Below are positions 5,797-53,679 of a stretch of 64,000 nucleotides of DNA, in pieces. The stretch lies in the NCBI RefSeq assembly GCF_000400935.1, contig NC_021280.1, positions 372,001-436,000 on the forward strand. Reading direction: 5' to 3'. The position numbers and the translations under genes are program-made. Under the pieces are notes generated by a model. It was not told the origin of the DNA and searched no databases. It saw nothing but the letters and a program-made list of their open reading frames with translations. Positions within the stretch are counted from its first letter, which is position 1; each line of letters begins with the position of its first letter. This DNA is from Spiroplasma chrysopicola DF-1 (GTDB lineage Bacteria; Bacillota_I; Bacilli_A; Mycoplasmatales; Mycoplasmataceae).

Positions 5797-6180
5797 ATGT
5801 CAAAAAATATTGTTAATTTATATGTATTAAATTCACAAATTTATCATCGTTTACAAAATAAACAGGGTAGAGTAATTGGTTATTTCATAAATAATCCTTG
5901 TGTTAATCTGGAAGTATTTTATGTTAAAGAAAATTGAGTTTTTAATGACGAGGGATTTGCTAACTGTTTAACGGTTGGTATTAGCAAGACAGATTTGTAT
6001 CCAATTTTTTTAAAAAAAGATTTGCAAAATTTAAAAGATTACAAACCAGGTAGTGAGATTATTAATAATTTCATTAATTGAAATAGTAAAAAACAAAACT
6101 CATTTGATGAGTTTAATCAGATGTATCAAAAAAAGAACAATTCAGTTAATAATGCGAACATAGATACGAACAGTTATTAA
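5797..6180 (+). CDS. Hypothetical protein of the accessory island
   Basis: A 127-residue open frame with two TGA-encoded Trp, starting at ATG 5797 with AAGGA upstream. It is soluble, with no signal or membrane segment and a polar Asn/Lys-rich C-terminus. I do not recognise the family. It is intact while its neighbours on both sides are broken, and lies in the same orientation with short gaps, which suggests it came with the same mobile element. Confidence 0.55.
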
Positions 6181-6216
6181 AAGATTTAGAAAGTTTATAG
6201 GAAGGAACATACTATT

Positions 6217-6663
6217 TTGGAACAAATTAAAAAACAAATTTTTTTAAATAAAAGATATTTAGTTAAATGAATTGAAAAGAAAACAGCATTTGCTGTTCAA
6301 GCACCAATCAATCCAAGAGCTGTTATTTGATGATCAAGATAATGATTTCAAATCAGCAACAAATGATCTTGTGGTAGTGAAAATTCATGTTTAGGCGTTG
6401 GTGAAAATAACTCAGGACATATTTATTGCCCGACAGGATACTTTGCTACAGCCTGTATTTTTAACAGAGACTATGAACAAATAGTTTATGGAGAAAAAGG
6501 AGTTGAAGAAATTATTTCGATAAGTGGGAAAAAACTTTTCAAAGCATTTGAAGAAATGAAAAAGAATAATTCTAAACTATATCTACAACAGGCAATGCAA
6601 TTACAGCATTCATTAGCTAACAAAGAGAACAATTATTTAAATTTAGGAAGGTTAGATTATTAG
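6217..6663 (+). pseudogene. Interrupted hypothetical gene
   Basis: TTG 6217, preceded by GGAAGGA, opens a frame that reads 41 residues to a TAA at 6340-6342 and continues in the same frame for about 106 residues to TAG 6661. The second part is Cys-containing (C-G-S-E-N-S-C and Y-C-P-T-G-Y-F-A-T-A-C). The same frame before and after the stop suggests a point nonsense mutation. Family not recognised; part of the decayed island. Confidence 0.5.
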
Positions 6664-6692
6664 TCTATCAATTAGAATCAGGAGGTGAAATT

Positions 6693-6803
6693 ATGATTAA
6701 AGTAATTTGTTTAGAGAAAAACTGCAATTATTTTGTGGTTATAAATTTAAAATTATTAAAGATTATTATGTGGAGTTGTAAAATAAATAAATTTTTAAAA
6801 TAG
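6693..6803 (+). CDS. Small open frame, probably a frameshifted remnant
   Basis: Thirty-six codons from ATG 6693 with an excellent AGGAGGTG seven bases upstream. Shifting by one base in the A5 run near 6717 gives an alternative ending (E-K-L-Q-L-F-C-G-Y-K-F-K-I-I-K-D-Y-Y) that looks more like a real protein. I suspect a homopolymer frameshift. Function unknown. Confidence 0.3.
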   Translation: MIKVICLEKNCNYFVVINLKLLKIIMWSCKINKFLK

Positions 6804-6959
6804 TTAGTAATGTTAATTATTATAAACTATAAATTAATCTTATTTTTCGTAATAAATTAAAATAGATTATATATAGCCATTATAAAAAATGGGATTAAAA
6901 TAACTATACTCTATAATAAATTTTGATAATTTTGGAAAATTTAAAATTAATTTTGCAAA

Positions 6960-7033
6960 ATTTTTCTTTTTCTTTTTTTTTTCTTTTTCTTTTGAAAAAA
7001 AAAAAAAAAAAGCATTCTTTAAAATTATATAAT
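6960..7033 (+). promoter_or_regulatory. Promoter region with C/T tract and A17 run
   Basis: A pure pyrimidine tract runs to about 6993 and is followed by 17 consecutive A (6995-7011). TATAAT sits at 7028-7033, so the end of the A run lies where the -35 region should be, and no normal -35 box is seen. In several mycoplasmas variation in the length of such a run changes promoter spacing and switches surface-lipoprotein expression. Here this is inferred from position only. Confidence 0.5.
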
Positions 7034-7074
7034 TTTTATAGCTTATTTTTAAGCAACAGAAAGAAGGATATATT

Positions 7075-8703
7075 ATGAAAAAATTATTAGCAATATTAGG
7101 AGCTCTTGGTTTAACAACTACTGGGGCAACTGCAGTTGTCGCATGCAAATCTTCTAATTCTAATACTCCAACTGTTTCAAAAAAAAGTATTTCCGATGTT
7201 AATGTAGAAGACCCACAAACAATAGCAGATGATACTAAGACATATGCTGATTTAAATAAAGATAAAACAATTATTAATTTAGTAATTGATGCGATTAATA
7301 AGGTCTTAGGCTTAACAAGAAACCAAGTAACTAGTGCTGATTTTGAATTAACAAATGCCCAAACAGGAACAGACAAACAAGCGGCTGGAACCGCAGTTGA
7401 ATTTATAGTTACAGCAAAAGATAGTTCATCTATAATTAAAGATAATTTTAAATTTATAAATACTTTAGCAGCACCTGCCAAAAAAAGTATTTCCGATGTT
7501 AATGTAGAAGACCCACAAACAGTAGCAGATGATACTAAGACATATGCTGATTTAAATAAAGATAAAACAATTATTAATTTAGTAATTGATGCGATTAATA
7601 AGGCCTTAGGCTTAACAAGAAACCAAGTAACTAGTGCTGATTTTGAATTAACAAATGCCCAAACAGGAACAGACAAACAAGTGGCTGGAACCGCAGTTGA
7701 ATTTATAGTTACAGCAAAAGATAGTTCATCTATAATTAAAGATAATTTTAAATTTATAAATACTTTAGCAGCACCTGCCAAAAAAAGTATTTCCGATGTT
7801 AATGTAGAAGACCCACAAACAGTAGCAGATGATACTAAGACATATGCTGATTTAAATGCTGATCAAACAATTATTAATTTAGTAATTGATGCGATTAATA
7901 AGGCCTTAGGCTTAACAAGAAACCAAGTAACTAGTGCTGATTTTGAATTAACAAATGCCCAAACAGGAACAGACAAACAAGTGGCTGGAACCGCAGTTGA
8001 ATTTATAGTTACAGCAAAAGATAGTTCATCTATAATTAAAGATAATTTTAAATTTATAGATACTTTAGCAGCACCTGCTAAAAAAAGTATTTCCGATGTT
8101 AATGTAGAAGACCCACAAACAGTAGCAGATGATACTAAGACATATGCTGATTTAAATGCTGATCAAACAATTATTAATTTAGTAATTGATGCGATTAATA
8201 AGGCCTTAGGCTTAACAAGAAACCAAGTAACTAGTGCTGATTTTGAATTAACAAATGCCCAAACAGGAACAGACAAACAAGTGGCTGGAACCGCAGTTGA
8301 ATTTATAGTTACAGCAAAAGATAGTTCATCTATAATTAAAGATAATTTTAAATTTATAGATACTTTAGCAGCACCTGCTAAAAAAAGTATTTCCGATGTT
8401 AATGTAGAAGACCCACAAACAGTAGCAGATGATACTAAGACATATGCTGATTTAAATGCTGATCAAACAATTATTAATTTAGTAATTGATGCGATTAATA
8501 AGGCCTTAGGCTTAACAAGAAACCAAGTAACTAGTGCTGATTTTGAATTAACAAATACCCAAACAGGAACAGACAAACAAGTGGCTGGAACCGCAGTTGA
8601 ATTTATAGTTACAGCAAAAGATAGTTCATCTATAATTAAAGATAATTTTAAATTTATAGATACTTTAGCAGCACCTGCCAAAAAAGTATTCTTAATAAAT
8701 TAG
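7075..8703 (+). CDS. Spiralin-like repeat lipoprotein (five tandem domains)
   Basis: A 542-residue surface lipoprotein. The N-terminus is a lipoprotein signal (M-K-K-L-L-A-I-L then T-A-V-V-A-C, lipid Cys at residue 24). After a short linker follow five 100-residue repeats encoded by near-identical 300-bp DNA units (7181-8680). Each repeat contains T-Y-A-D-L-N, S-A-D-F-E-L-T-N, V-T-A-K-D-S-S and T-L-A-A-P-A. From memory of spiralin, the major Spiroplasma membrane protein, these correspond to its C-terminal half (N-T-Y-A-x-L, S-D-F-E-I-T-N, V-K-A-K-D-E-S, T-L-A-P-P-K). The protein ends K-V-F-L-I-N because the A run after repeat five has six instead of seven A, so a sixth repeat frame is lost. 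Role: cell-surface coat or adhesion, inferred. Confidence 0.85.
   Translation: MKKLLAILGALGLTTTGATAVVACKSSNSNTPTVSKKSISDVNVEDPQTIADDTKTYADLNKDKTIINLVIDAINKVLGLTRNQVTSADFELTNAQTGTDKQAAGTAVEFIVTAKDSSSIIKDNFKFINTLAAPAKKSISDVNVEDPQTVADDTKTYADLNKDKTIINLVIDAINKALGLTRNQVTSADFELTNAQTGTDKQVAGTAVEFIVTAKDSSSIIKDNFKFINTLAAPAKKSISDVNVEDPQTVADDTKTYADLNADQTIINLVIDAINKALGLTRNQVTSADFELTNAQTGTDKQVAGTAVEFIVTAKDSSSIIKDNFKFIDTLAAPAKKSISDVNVEDPQTVADDTKTYADLNADQTIINLVIDAINKALGLTRNQVTSADFELTNAQTGTDKQVAGTAVEFIVTAKDSSSIIKDNFKFIDTLAAPAKKSISDVNVEDPQTVADDTKTYADLNADQTIINLVIDAINKALGLTRNQVTSADFELTNTQTGTDKQVAGTAVEFIVTAKDSSSIIKDNFKFIDTLAAPAKKVFLIN
7181..8680 (+). repeat. Five 300-bp tandem repeats
   Basis: Units start at 7181, 7481, 7781, 8081 and 8381, all exactly 300 bp. 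Units differ at few positions; units 3-5 share the change from AAT-AAA-GAT-AAA to AAT-GCT-GAT-CAA and are nearly identical, which indicates recent duplication or gene conversion. The repeat number should be unstable by recombination. Confidence 0.95.
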
Positions 8704-47208: not shown

Positions 47209-47579
47209 ATTTAATTGTTCCTTTCAGAAATTTAATAATCTGCCATTATTGTATCATTTATTTAACAGCTAAAATATTATTTTCTTAAAATCAAATTTTC
47301 AAGCAAAAAAAATTAAATAAACAGGGATTATTAGAAAATTATAATACTGTGGCTTTCCTTTTAAATTACGCCTATAAATGTTAAAAAGAAAAATATAGAA
47401 ATAATATTTTTTAACCAAATCAGAAAAAGAATATTGTTAATTATTTACTTTGCAATATTTTCCACCAACCAACTGATTTATTTGCATAATTCCTTATTGT
47501 TAATTGAAAATAGTTTTTGCTTATGATAATATTTTTTTGCTATTTTATTTATTAGCATATGATTTTAGGAGTTTATTTT
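47209..47579. other. Intergenic region between divergent genes
   Basis: 370 AT-rich bases between the minus-strand membrane protein and the glycosidase operon. I see no gene, no RNA fold and no clear paired promoter boxes; TTGTTA (47497) with TATGAT (47522) is a weak candidate for the plus strand. Confidence 0.5.
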
Positions 47580-49811
47580 ATGAGAAAACAAGTATTAATC
47601 TTGGCTGCTGTAACAACAGTTATTTTTTTACCTACTCAAGTGACAAGTTGCTTTTTTAAGCTAGCAACATTAATCACAGCAAGTGAACGAAATGATAATT
47701 TTCAAACAGGTTATGTCAGCCCTCAAAATTTACAAGCAGATGAATCACAGCCAATTCATACTTTTTTTGGTGATCCGTATCATTTATATTCAATGTATAA
47801 TGTGGAAAAAAGTACTGTTCAAAATGGCTTATGGAGTCCGGATAATAATTGACAATTTTATGGTAATTATCATCAGCAATTAACATATTTTAATAATCAG
47901 ACAAAAGTTAAAATGTGGCGAGATGAAACTAATTATGCTCAACTGATTGTAGTTAATAAAAATAAAGCTTTAAAAAATGTGACCTACAAAATTATTAATA
48001 AAGATAATGCTGATCTTGCAGCGAATGCGAAATTTTTGGGCTTTACTTATTCGCAAAACGAAACTTCTAAGCAATCGCAATGAGTAACAATTCCAACTAA
48101 ACAACCTCAACGAGCACCTGATTCTTTACGATATGATAATTTAGGAATTTTACCAGTACAAAGAGTACAACCGCTGTGATTGACTTTTAAAAGTTTTGAT
48201 ACAACTAAACCGGGTAATTATAATTTTGATGTTGAAATTTATGCCGATGATGTTTTATTAACAACAAATCAGTTAACAGTTGAAGTTGCTTCACAATTAT
48301 TGGTGAACGATAATACGTTTGCAACAGGGGGATCTTATTCACCATTTGCTTCTTCTGCTGTATATGGTGAAAAAAAGAATATGTTTATTAATGTTGATGC
48401 AAAAAAGGAAAATAATATCTTACTTAATACAAATGCGGTTGTGCGGGGATTAGATTTTTTATCAACTGAACATAAAAAATATGTTGAAAAAGAATTATTA
48501 GATTTACGAGCAGCAGGCCAAACATACGTTACAGGTAATGTTGATCAGTTTTATAATGCGGATCAAGTTAATTATTATCGTGGGGGAACAAATAATGGTT
48601 TAGTTAATTGATACCAAACTGATGACAATTGTTCACCATTTTCGACATATTGTGACCAAAGTATTAATAGTACATGACAATTTGATTTTAGTAATTTTAA
48701 TACTTATTTTGAATATGCCCAAAGTTTAGGTTTTACTAAACTGTGAGCGAATGCTTTTGGTAATAATTTTGATGATACTCAAGCAAATCCATCAGGAACT
48801 TTTCCGCATTATGCGTTAAAAAAAGATGGTTCGAAGAAATTATTTTGGGATAAACTATATTATTATTCAAACCGTGGTCGTGATGCCCAACTTCAATTTT
48901 TGCAGGCATTTGCTAATAATATAAAAGCTCACCATTGAGAAGGAAAAATTTACATTATTTTTGATGAATTATCAGCTAATGGTTTTAAGTATTATTATGA
49001 TCTGTTCAAAGTTGTTGACCCTGATCATAGTATTTTTAAATTTCAATACTATGCAGGATGAAAGTGAGCAACTGATTGAAATAATCCCGCTTGAGTTGAT
49101 GCTTTATATGGTAATGTTAAAAATGAATATACAATTGATGATTTAGTTTTAGAAGGTTATAAAATTCAATCAAATTTATTTGGGGATAATTTACCAATAT
49201 CAACTTTACTCCAAAAAACAAATGAACTAGCAAATTCACGCCGTAAAAATGGTTTATCAACAGAAATGTATACAACACAATATACCTATCCATCAAGTAA
49301 TATTTTATTTGATTATGGCGAAAATTTATGAGGTCCAATTTTTAGTTATGCCTTAGGGTTAGATGGTTATGAAAAATGAGCTTTTAATTACTGATTAACA
49401 TGATCTGGTAAGGGTGAAAAGGCATTATATACTAATCCGGATGAATTTGCTTATGGTTCATTGAATCAAGAGGAAAGTGTTTATGGAATGCCAGTTGGTC
49501 AAAATTTTATGATTTATCCAGCACAATCCGATAGTTACCAATTTGTTTCTTCAGTACGATGAGAATTAATGAAATATGCAGTTCAGCAAGTATGAAAAAT
49601 TAATCAATTAAAAAAAGATCCGGCCAATAATCTTAAAATTACAGCGTTATTAGATAATTTGATTTGACCAAAAAATCCAACTCAAGGAATACCAATTTGA
49701 TTTGATCAATATTATAAATTTGTGCAAGATTTTTATTCTGAAAAAACAAGTAATAAGGTTACAACAAGAGAAATGATTCAGTTTTTAAAAGCAATAGGAG
49801 ATTTATATTAA
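47580..49811 (+). CDS. Secreted glycoside-hydrolase-like lipoprotein (DUF4091/GH123-like)
   Basis: A 743-residue protein with many TGA Trp codons. Signal M-R-K-Q-V-L-I-L-A-A-V then V-T-S-C, a lipobox, so it is probably a surface lipoprotein. Residues about 80-260 look like a beta-sandwich; from about 380 a TIM-barrel-like part with F-D-F-S-N-F-N-T-Y, I-Y-I-I-F-D-E-L-S (D462-E463, the position of the catalytic Asp-Glu pair in GH123 N-acetyl-beta-galactosaminidases) and Y-A-G-W-K. The end (G-L-D-G-Y-E-K-W-A-F-N-Y-W, then F-M-I-Y-P and S-S-V-R-W-E-L-M-K) resembles DUF4091. Assignment is from motif memory. It overlaps the next gene by one base. Confidence 0.72.
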
Positions 49812-52585
49812 TGTGAAAAAATAAAAGATTTATTACTGGCTTTAGTTTGCTATTATTATCATTCTTTATTTGCGGTTTTTTTGTGATATTTGCTAGTGTT
49901 AACACTGTGATGATGCAAAATAACCACACTAAAATTACAGGTTTTCAAATTTTTCAAATAATAAACAATAATTTTAAAACCGGCTATGTTTCGATTCCTG
50001 GTTTTATTTATGTCATTATTTATGGTAGTATCAATTCCTTTGCTTCTTTTAGTTTAGGTTATTGATGAACTTTAAAATTTAGTTTAATTTTTGCAATGTT
50101 TTTTGCACCCATTTTATTTCTAAGTGCTATGGTAGTTTTAACAAAATACTTTGCCAAAACTAATTTTAAATTTCAGACTTTTTTAATTAAAATTCATCAT
50201 TTTTTTAGTTATAAATATCTTTTTATTTTTTTAATTATTGTTTCATTAATCCCTAATTTAGTTTCACCATTCTTTAATAAAACTAATTTTAACCAAAATC
50301 CAAATGTCTTAGTTCCTTTTGATTTAGCAAAGATTAGTAAGCCAAACTCTTCAGAGGTATATTTGGGGGCTGATCAACAAAAATGAGAAACAATTTTTAG
50401 TGCAACAGTAATTAAATATTTACTACAGTTTGATGAAACGGGAACCTTTAATACAAAAGAAATATTACTCGAATACTATAAAGAAGATAAATTAATTAAT
50501 TTATCAACAATTGAGGATGGTGATTTTATTAGCGTTATTGCTGTTAGTAACAAAGATGCTAAAACGGTGATTAATCAATCACAACAGTTACAGTATCAAG
50601 TTTTTAATACGACAGTTGATTTAACCTTAGTAAATGCTTTACCCCCGGTTTCAAAACAAGTGGCAGCTTTAAATGCAACAAAAGTAACGCAAGATGAGAT
50701 TAAAAACACATTATCACCAATTATCGTAACTTTATTACAAGAAAAGAATCAAGGTATTAGCCAAGCAGATTTTACTCTGACCGTTTATCAAAAAAAAGAT
50801 GCTAATACAGAAATTAATACTATTAATATGAGCGATAAGTCAATAATTTTATATTTGATTATAAGTGCCGATAGTCATAGCGTAATTTTACAAGGAAAAA
50901 CAAATTATTTAACAATTATTTTTCCAGCCATTGGTAGTACAAAAATTGATTTATCAATTATTAATGTTCTTCCTGACCAAGAAGTACCAATTATTGTAAA
51001 TGATCCAAAACAAGTTTCTCATGCTAAAATTATTAATAATTTGCAATATCTTATTAATCCAATTGTTTTACAGTTATATCATAAAATAAGTACTAGTGAT
51101 TATAGTATTGAAATTTATCCTAGTTTAGAAACAACAACCCCAATTACAATTCTTGATCTGTCAAAGGAAGTAAAGATTTATGTTCAAATTAAAGCTAACA
51201 ACAATAGTTCAGTAATTATGGGTAAAACAAATTATATTGCTGTCAAATTATTGCATGCGACAAGCGAAAAGACTAATTTAGCAAAATTAATTATATTATC
51301 ACCATTACCGGAAGGAATCATAGCAAAAGATGTTAGCGTTGTTAATCATGATGAAATCATTTTAGGATTAAAACAGCATCTTTTAAATGAGATACAAAAA
51401 ATAAATTATGATGCTGTTACTAGTGATTATACGTATGAAATATATAATACTTTAGATGAAAAAGATATTGTGACAACTGTTAATATGGTTGAAAGTGGAG
51501 TTAGATTATATTTAAAAGTTTTTGCGAAACCAACAAGCAATCAATTAACTGGTAAAAGTGACTTTTTAGAAGTTTATTTTCCCGCTGCCATTGGGATTAA
51601 AACAAATCTAGTAGATATTATAAATTTAAATCAACCCGAGAATGGGATTAGTGCTTCTAATCCAAGCGCTGTTACATACCAAGAAATTTTTGCGGCTATT
51701 AGCCCTTTAATTTTAGCAACTTTAATTGAATTCAATCCCCAAACAATTAAGGCAGATTATACATACCAAATTTATAACTCTCGTAATGCTACAGATATTG
51801 TAACAACTGTTGATATGAGTAAATCATATGTTAATATTTTTGTTAAACTCACTGCTGCCACAACTTCAACACACTGAGAAGGAATTAGTAATTATTTATT
51901 AGTGAAATTTCCTTTAGCAGTCCAGGGGAAATTAACAATTAGTAGTATTGCCACAATTGAAGCTCCGAAAGAAGGAATTATAACAAATATTCCTAGCGGA
52001 GTTAAACATAATGAAATAACGGCAGTTTTAGATCAGAGTGTTTTAGCGGAGATCCAAGCAATCAGTAGCAATGTAACATCAGCAGATTTTAGTTATGAAA
52101 TTTATCGGGATGAAATAGCAAGTGAGCCAATTACATTAATTGATATGAGGATGGCAACAACAGTTTTTGTAGTTATCCGTGCTGGGGCAGATAGCACATG
52201 AATAAAAGATCAAAGTCAAATTATTGCCGTGGCATTTCCCCCAGCGATTAAGGAAAAAACAGATTTAATTAACTTAACAGCAATTGAAGCTTTATCACAA
52301 GGAATCCAAGCTGTTAATACGCAAGCAGTTACATATCAAGAAATTTATGATGCAATCAAAGGCAATGTTTTTGCGGCTGTTAAATTTTTGGACCCAGCAG
52401 TTAGTGAAGAAGATTTTACATTTGAAATTTATAATTCACGAAGTGCAGGGGATATTGTAACAACAGTTGATATGAGTATATCTTGAATTACGTTGTATTT
52501 TAAAGTTGTGGCCGCTAAAAATAGTCAAGAATTAAAGGGAATTACTAATTATTTACCAGTTAAATTTCCTTTAGCAATAAAATAG
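49811..52585 (+). CDS. Membrane protein with six tandem spiralin-like domains
   Basis: A 924-residue protein. Residues 7-30, 63-85, 90-115 and 134-153 are membrane spans; the rest should be outside. From about residue 262 to the end stand six divergent repeats of 105-115 residues, starting near 263, 377, 486, 596, 706 and 815. Each has D/N-P-x-x-V-T/S-x-x-E-I near its start, T/S-x-A-D-F/Y-x-Y/F-E/Q-I-Y in the middle and a beta-strand plus G-x-T/S-N-Y-L-x-V-x-F-P at the end. From memory this matches the N-terminal half of spiralin (D-P-K-Q-V-T-N-A-E-I, A-D-F-Q-F-D-V-Y, G-E-T-G-Y-I-K-V-T-L-P). ATG 49811 overlaps the glycosidase stop, so both are coupled. Confidence 0.8.
50594..52582 (+). repeat. 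Six divergent spiralin-like domain repeats (protein level)
   Basis: Unit length about 330 bp. Unlike the 300-bp units at 7181-8680 these are old and well diverged at DNA level, so they should be stable in number. Confidence 0.75.
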
Positions 52586-52597
52586 AAAGAAGAAAAT

Positions 52598-53632
52598 ATG
52601 AAACAATATTCAAATTTAAATTTATTAAAAATTGTTGCTGTTTTATTTGTGATCAGTCAGCACACAATTTCATCATTCTTGTATAAAAACACAGCTTTAA
52701 CTACTGCAATTTATCCAATTTTATTTAACAATAATACCTTATTTGCATTATTAACCGGTTATTTTTTAATTAATGGTAATACTTTACGAAGCAAATATTT
52801 ACAAATTTTGCTTTATGGTTTACCATTATTATTAATTCATGGGTTAGGGGCAATGAATTATTCATTACCTCCCCAGTTAGCTTTTCAAAATTTTATTCAA
52901 GCAACCTTTGATGATAGTTGATATTATTATTCAATTATTATTATTTATGTTTTGGCTCCTTTTATTGCACATTTTTATCAAACAAATAAAAATGGTAAAT
53001 ATTGAATTGTAACATTATTTATTGTATTTACAACAATTATTGTTTTAACAAATGTATTAACAAAAATTAATAATAGTTTTAATTTAAGTTTTATGCCAAA
53101 AATGAGTTATGCCGGTTATTTCACTGATATGAGCTTTGTTAAATTGTTCATCTGATTTCAAATTGGAACGTTATTAAAAATTTATAAGTTAGCAGATTAT
53201 GCTAAGCATAAATGATGAAAATTAAGCATTTATATTTTATTAGTTCCAATTTGTTATTTTTTATCATATTATAGTTTTACAACTGGTAAAAGTGATTTTG
53301 AAAAAATTTGTTCAGCTTTTAGTCTTGTTTGAACAACTTTATTTTCAATTGCTTTATTTGGATTATTTTCGGCAATGCCATTTAGCTGCTATACAATTGA
53401 TGTTATTGCCGAAACAACATTAGTAGTTTATTTATTACATAAGTTACAAATTTATTGATTAACAAAATACTGAACAGGGCCATTTGCAACACGTAATATT
53501 GTTGGTTTAATTTTAATTCCAATTGGTTTTATTTTTTGAAGTGGGGTTGGCTATTTATACAATCGAACTCTTGGAAAACAAATTACAGGTTTAGTTTATA
53601 GATGGGATAATAAGTTTTTGCAAAAAGGTTAG
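52598..53632 (+). CDS. Acyltransferase-3 family membrane protein
   Basis: A 344-residue protein with about ten membrane spans. L-N-L-L-K-I-V-A-V-L-F-V-I-S-Q-H (His22) is the N-terminal catalytic motif of acyltransferase-3 proteins (OafA, WecH-like), which transfer acyl groups to surface sugars. Late V-V-Y-L-L-H-K-L has the second conserved His. It starts 12 bases after the spiralin-repeat gene with AGAAAGAAG as RBS, completing a three-gene surface unit. The acceptor could be a glycolipid or a glycan; unknown. Confidence 0.78.
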
Positions 53633-53679
53633 TTAAAATAATAAACACATAATTTATTCTATCTCTCAAAATTAAGAAA

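Follow-up and report, generated by a model that had tools for sequence, protein, structure and literature searches.

A putatively transferred three-gene unit for a GH123-family lipoprotein, a spiralin-domain membrane protein and a predicted acyltransferase in a spiroplasma

Introduction

Do three tightly coupled genes for surface proteins in a spiroplasma genome form one system, and would such a system act on the glycans of the host or on those of the cell itself? Mollicutes lack a wall, so that all contact with the host runs through their lipoproteins and membrane proteins. Among the adhesins of spiroplasmas spiralin is well studied, yet the ligand of its domain lacks a structural explanation; previous studies described it as a lectin that binds insect glycoproteins and as the protein that covers the cell surface of Spiroplasma citri (PMC4804543).

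Here we analyzed a stretch of 64,000 bases (the window) from the genome of a spiroplasma (G000, one contig of 1,123,322 bases), which is probably insect-associated. A first-pass annotation had recognized in it three coupled genes for a glycosidase, a membrane protein with six spiralin-like domains and an acyltransferase, and knew of no description of the combination. Each of the three parts falls into a known family. Neither their combination nor its status as a transferable cassette turned up in the literature searched, and neither did any paper joining Spiroplasma with GH123, DUF4091 or beta-N-acetylgalactosaminidase.

Results

Organization of the locus

Open reading frames were read with translation table 4. 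The features of the locus (positions in the window) are as follows.

47504..47532, + strand: candidate promoter-like TTGAAA-17-TAATAT, with TG ahead of the second hexamer
47580..49811, + strand: gene 1, GH123-family lipoprotein, predicted exo-beta-N-acetylgalactosaminidase, 743 aa (Pfam GH123_cat, E 3.1e-21; fold match to CpNga123; DE pair conserved in 20 relatives)
48963..48968, + strand: codons (gat gaa) of the predicted catalytic Asp462-Glu463
49811..52585, + strand: gene 2, membrane protein with a hydrophobic N-terminus and six spiralin domains, 924 aa
50615..52579, + strand: DNA encoding the six spiralin-domain copies of gene 2 (residues 269-923, HMM matches)
52598..53632, + strand: gene 3, predicted integral membrane acyltransferase, Acyl_transf_3, 344 aa (PF01757, E 3.8e-12)
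47549..53637, + strand: cassette, continuous DNA homology with L057 6674-12763 of a second species (82% over 6099 columns)
47264..53674, no strand: interval missing at the orthologous site of the close relative G026 (L131), where a Na/Ca exchanger gene lies instead

The coupling described in the first-pass annotation is present at both junctions: the TAA of gene 1 (49809-49811) and the ATG of gene 2 (49811) have one base in common, and 12 bases separate gene 2 from gene 3. An RBS-like AGGAG lies at 47567-47571, ahead of the ATG of gene 1. Promoter-like matches in the region numbered 58 against a shuffle mean of 48.1 (sd 7.1), which is not clearly above chance, and the region scan found no terminator-like site. 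Chance or misread open reading frames were ruled out by the family matches of all three products and by the copy in the second species. The downstream ABC transporter was ruled out as a fourth part of the cassette, since it is kept in G026 without the trio.

Gene 1 encodes a GH123-family lipoprotein

Gene 1 codes for a GH123-family protein, which matches Pfam GH123_cat/DUF4091 with 76.5 bits (cut-off 23.1); against the N-terminal domain PF22680 it scores 26.0 bits, just under the cut-off of 27. Counted from the MRKQ start, residue 24 is the last of a lipobox-like VTSC. D462-E463 is invariant across 20 spiroplasmal GH123 proteins and aligns with the DE of CpNga123, and a profile from 20 spiroplasmal relatives retrieved the solved GH123 enzymes CpNga123 (2e-23) and BvGH123 (1e-20). 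The predicted structure, which is of moderate confidence (pLDDT 64, pTM 0.72), has the N-terminal beta-sandwich and (beta/alpha)8 barrel of the GH123 fold; it matched CpNga123 with a Foldseek E of 9e-31 and a VIA Z of 26.1 (517 residues, rmsd 2.9 A), and Groups 1-4 of the enlarged GH123 family scored below this (VIA Z 18-22). The glycosidase family, the lipobox and the Asp-Glu pair that had been read from the letters were thus all upheld.

Previous work assigned the substrate-assisted mechanism of GH123 to the DE motif, and reported that the main GH123 group releases the monosaccharide GalNAc, and that DE-bearing DUF4091/GH123 proteins are mostly expected to be beta-N-acetylgalactosaminidases (PMC11087588). 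Taken with the CpNga123-like fold and the DE pair, these group data make exo-beta-N-acetylgalactosaminidase the likely activity of gene 1. The PDB entry titles of CpNga123 name a beta-N-acetylgalactosaminidase that acts on glycolipids.

Gene 2 encodes a membrane protein with repeated spiralin domains

Spiralin domains occupy residues about 269-375, 379-485, 489-593, 598-704, 709-814 and 817-923 of gene 2, and each of the six copies is significant (2.8e-25 to 1.2e-29) against a purpose-built HMM that includes these same six copies. Pfam Spiralin (PF05215) gives 33.8 bits (cut-off 25; orthologue 39.5 bits), and NCBIfam spiralin_LP (NF038030) matches in six stretches with 130.5 bits, which falls short of the equivalog cut-off (140). 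The N-terminus has no lipobox, which is present in the spiralin-type gene of the same genome. From this absence and the score under the equivalog cut-off, gene 2 is judged to encode a spiralin-domain protein and not spiralin itself. A seventh, more divergent copy ahead of the six is suggested by eye and by alignment.

The six domains announced by the first-pass annotation therefore stood, and so did their likeness to the first part of spiralin, but its four N-terminal spans are doubtful: three segments are strongly hydrophobic (about 7-30, 90-110 and 133-155), and that at 60-78 is weakly so in both species. The N-terminus is positively charged and a Lys-rich loop lies at 111-134. With the N-terminus inside, three spans would place the repeats outside the cell and four would place them inside.

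The glycan binding that had been taken over from the spiralin literature found no structural counterpart. Modelled with AlphaFold2 and 35 homologous domains, the fourth confident copy (residues 598-706) reached pLDDT 96, and the PDB search gave no confident match (best Foldseek E 0.24, best VIA Z 5.4) and so none to a known lectin fold; weak VIA matches were GhpA repeats (Z 5.4), SlpA domain II (4.3) and Rib (4.1). The lectin claim for spiralin is therefore not transferable to gene 2 by structure.

Spiralin domains were also observed elsewhere. Window 7042-8700 is a lipobox lipoprotein ORF (542 aa from the first Met) whose five spiralin-type domains are encoded in tandem, each unit being about 300 bases long; a similar ORF at G000:C1:767111-768997 (L075) has six copies. 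The lipobox-bearing spiralin-type gene of the genome is split (L073 6026-7763, G000:C1:461025-462762), with three domains in 6026-7042 and two more, in another frame, in 7032-7763, which may reflect a frameshift, phase variation or an assembly error. The proteins at L077 6766-8151 and L081 4491-6332 combine two spiralin domains with a single hydrophobic segment and an N-terminal part that contains Cys; L071 and L133 have similar-looking N-termini, with no spiralin domains detected. In G004, which belongs to another genus, two neighbouring proteins carry six and four spiralin domains (L078 6327-9988), so that multi-spiralin-domain proteins also exist outside the genus studied here.

Gene 3 encodes an acyltransferase-3 family protein

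Pfam PF01757 matches nearly all of the 344 residues of gene 3 with 46.4 bits (cut-off 31; orthologue 31.7 bits), which agrees with the family first assigned to it. About six strong hydrophobic segments were counted on a simple scale, and H22 and R64 are invariant across three relatives aligned. The product probably attaches acyl groups to sugars. Acyltransferase-3 (AT3) proteins usually act on molecules of their own cell surface. The family as a whole is present in 21 of 60 genomes of the bacterial family; close relatives of gene 3 were found there only in G000, G022 (85-86% identical) and G026 (67-70%), and the G026 gene stands at a separate site, without genes 1 and 2 and near a polysaccharide deacetylase gene.

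Distribution and transfer of the trio

Two of the 60 family genomes surveyed, G000 and the second species (G022), which is only distantly related to it, carry the complete trio, and full-length gene 2 was found in these two only; the idea of the trio as a general feature of the citri clade was thus not borne out, whereas its conservation was, by the complete second copy. GH123 (18/60) and AT3 mostly occur apart. A class-wide sample of 395 genomes added no close relative of gene 1 to that in G022, and a phage collection queried with gene 1 and a plasmid collection queried with gene 2 gave no matches.

The two trios have the same order and tight junctions at different genome loci. In G022 two genes, one for a Bmp-type lipoprotein and one further ORF, lie upstream of the trio, and PTS genes lie downstream. 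Homology begins 31 bases 5' of gene 1 and stops 5 bases 3' of gene 3, and no comparable homology was found outside 47549..53637. Protein identity is 87% for gene 1, 71% for gene 2 (the fastest-diverging of the three) and 86% for gene 3, against 68% for ValRS and 58% for NagA. G026 (1,107,344 bases), whose ValRS is 94% identical to that of G000, has no complete trio, and its flanks are colinear and mostly 93-98% identical to the window (immediate upstream gene, 77%). The Na/Ca exchanger family gene at the G026 site is at L131 5994-7145, and G000 encodes a protein of similar appearance at another site (L136 163-1317).

The homology limits at the gene edges, the identities above those of ValRS and NagA and the G026 site without the trio indicate that the trio is a discrete unit which has undergone transfer or exchange, and horizontal movement of the whole trio is the simplest account. 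dN/dS is 0.10, 0.26 and 0.13 for genes 1, 2 and 3; such low values at a dS of 0.6-0.7 mean that purifying selection retains all three genes. This selection, the homology limits and the maintenance of the trio in a second species support one system.

A second GH123 operon in spiroplasmas

Six genomes carry a second conserved GH123 operon (type B, with the order X - GH123 - X' - Y), at L059 4853-10706 (G026) and in L053, L054, L055, L060 and L062. The paralogous proteins X and X' are about 380-400 aa long, and Y, of about 420 aa, has many predicted spans; none of the X, X' and Y proteins examined matched a Pfam family. The type B GH123 is about 25% identical to gene 1, with a deep split in the tree, and is more widespread in the genus; G022 carries both the trio and the type B operon. 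Type B is probably a separate GH123-based surface system, and spiroplasmal GH123 enzymes thus appear to act in at least two different surface operons. A decaying GH123 copy, broken across several frames, lies in L067 (G018:C1:225000-241500).

Discussion

Proposed function and alternative explanations

Starting from the coupled order, the common transfer, the product families and the purifying selection described above, we infer the activity, location, target and cooperation of the three products as follows. The reading that we favour, tentatively and with slightly less than even confidence, is that the trio is a transferable cassette acting on surface glycans, in which the GH123 enzyme, the spiralin domains and the acyltransferase cooperate. 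The gene 1 lipoprotein would sit outside, on the membrane, and remove terminal beta-linked GalNAc by substrate-assisted catalysis, its targets being most likely arthropod host glycoconjugates such as glycosphingolipids or LacdiNAc-bearing N-glycans; the gene 2 protein would project from the membrane and hold the cell or the enzyme close to such glycans, and gene 3 would O-acylate a glycan or glycolipid at the membrane, altering the surface of the cell itself. Against the cassette we count the rarity of the trio, which means that insect association does not depend on it, the G026 acyltransferase, which stands alone and can thus work without genes 1 and 2, the moderate GH123 model and the spiralin domain without a confident PDB match.

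The main rival of a host-directed reading, which we consider rather unlikely, is that the glycans processed are those of the cell itself: GH123 would trim and AT3 would O-acylate an exported glycolipid or polysaccharide, the spiralin-repeat protein would be a scaffold or surface layer, and host glycans would not be the target. This would agree with the usual substrates of AT3 proteins, with the polysaccharide deacetylase near the G026 relative and with the spiralin-covered surface of S. citri (PMC4804543); however, the cassette has neither a glycosyltransferase nor an export gene, and the closest fold relative of its GH123 acts on glycolipid glycans according to the PDB entry titles.

GalNAc might also be freed by the lipoprotein as a nutrient, then imported and fermented, which is improbable in our judgement. 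An operon-like run in G000 does combine an AgaS-family isomerase, a GlcNAc-type PTS (IIBC), an AgaR-like regulator and nagA (L133 6194-11717, G000:C1:689 to 695 kb), but the AgaS-like protein reaches 391 bits where the cut-off is 529 and may serve GlcN6P, G022 has no AgaS match and its nagB adjoins nagA, the second aldolase fits fructose-bisphosphate better than tagatose-bisphosphate, and nagA is nearly universal within the family. GalNAc catabolism is therefore ambiguous as an explanation of the trio, and scavenging leaves genes 2 and 3 unexplained. That three functionally unrelated surface genes travelled together by chance is about as improbable: GH123 and AT3 mostly occur apart and two complete cassettes amount to one transfer history, but the trio is intact and in order, with near-overlapping junctions, low dN/dS over that dS, and homology edges that coincide with its own.

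Within the reading of the trio as a glycan-acting cassette, we can be more specific, although the specific form is itself doubtful: in arthropod-associated mollicutes that exchange the cassette horizontally, the membrane-anchored beta-N-acetylgalactosaminidase would cut arthropod glycolipids or LacdiNAc, the six domains would bind that same class of glycan, and the acyltransferase would protect or alter the surface of the cell itself, together influencing which host tissues are colonized. The frequent occurrence of GH123 in spiroplasmas (18 of 60 family genomes) is unmentioned in the literature searched, and the coupling of spiralin domains to a predicted beta-GalNAc enzyme offers a concrete, testable guess at the ligand of the spiralin domain.

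Comparison with known systems

Gene 3 resembles the acyltransferase-3 membrane proteins (PF01757) in its domain match and multi-span hydrophobic profile, and differs in that its close relatives are confined, within the family, to the three genomes named above. The six domains of gene 2 are most like the first domain of the spiralin of Spiroplasma citri and relatives; unlike spiralin, gene 2 has no lipobox, several hydrophobic N-terminal spans and six copies of the domain. As in the trio, the type B operon sets a GH123 lipoprotein tightly beside surface and multi-span proteins, but its partner families are unlike those of the trio. Gene 1 shares with CpNga123 of Clostridium perfringens the fold, with an N-terminal beta-domain followed by a barrel, and the adjacent catalytic Asp-Glu, and its model also matches the exo-beta-N-acetylgalactosaminidase fold of BvGH123 (VIA Z 24.4), with only 15-20% identity to either in structural alignments. 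Unlike both enzymes, it is predicted to be a membrane lipoprotein of a wall-less bacterium, and its gene shares a putative operon with those for a spiralin-domain protein and an AT3 protein.
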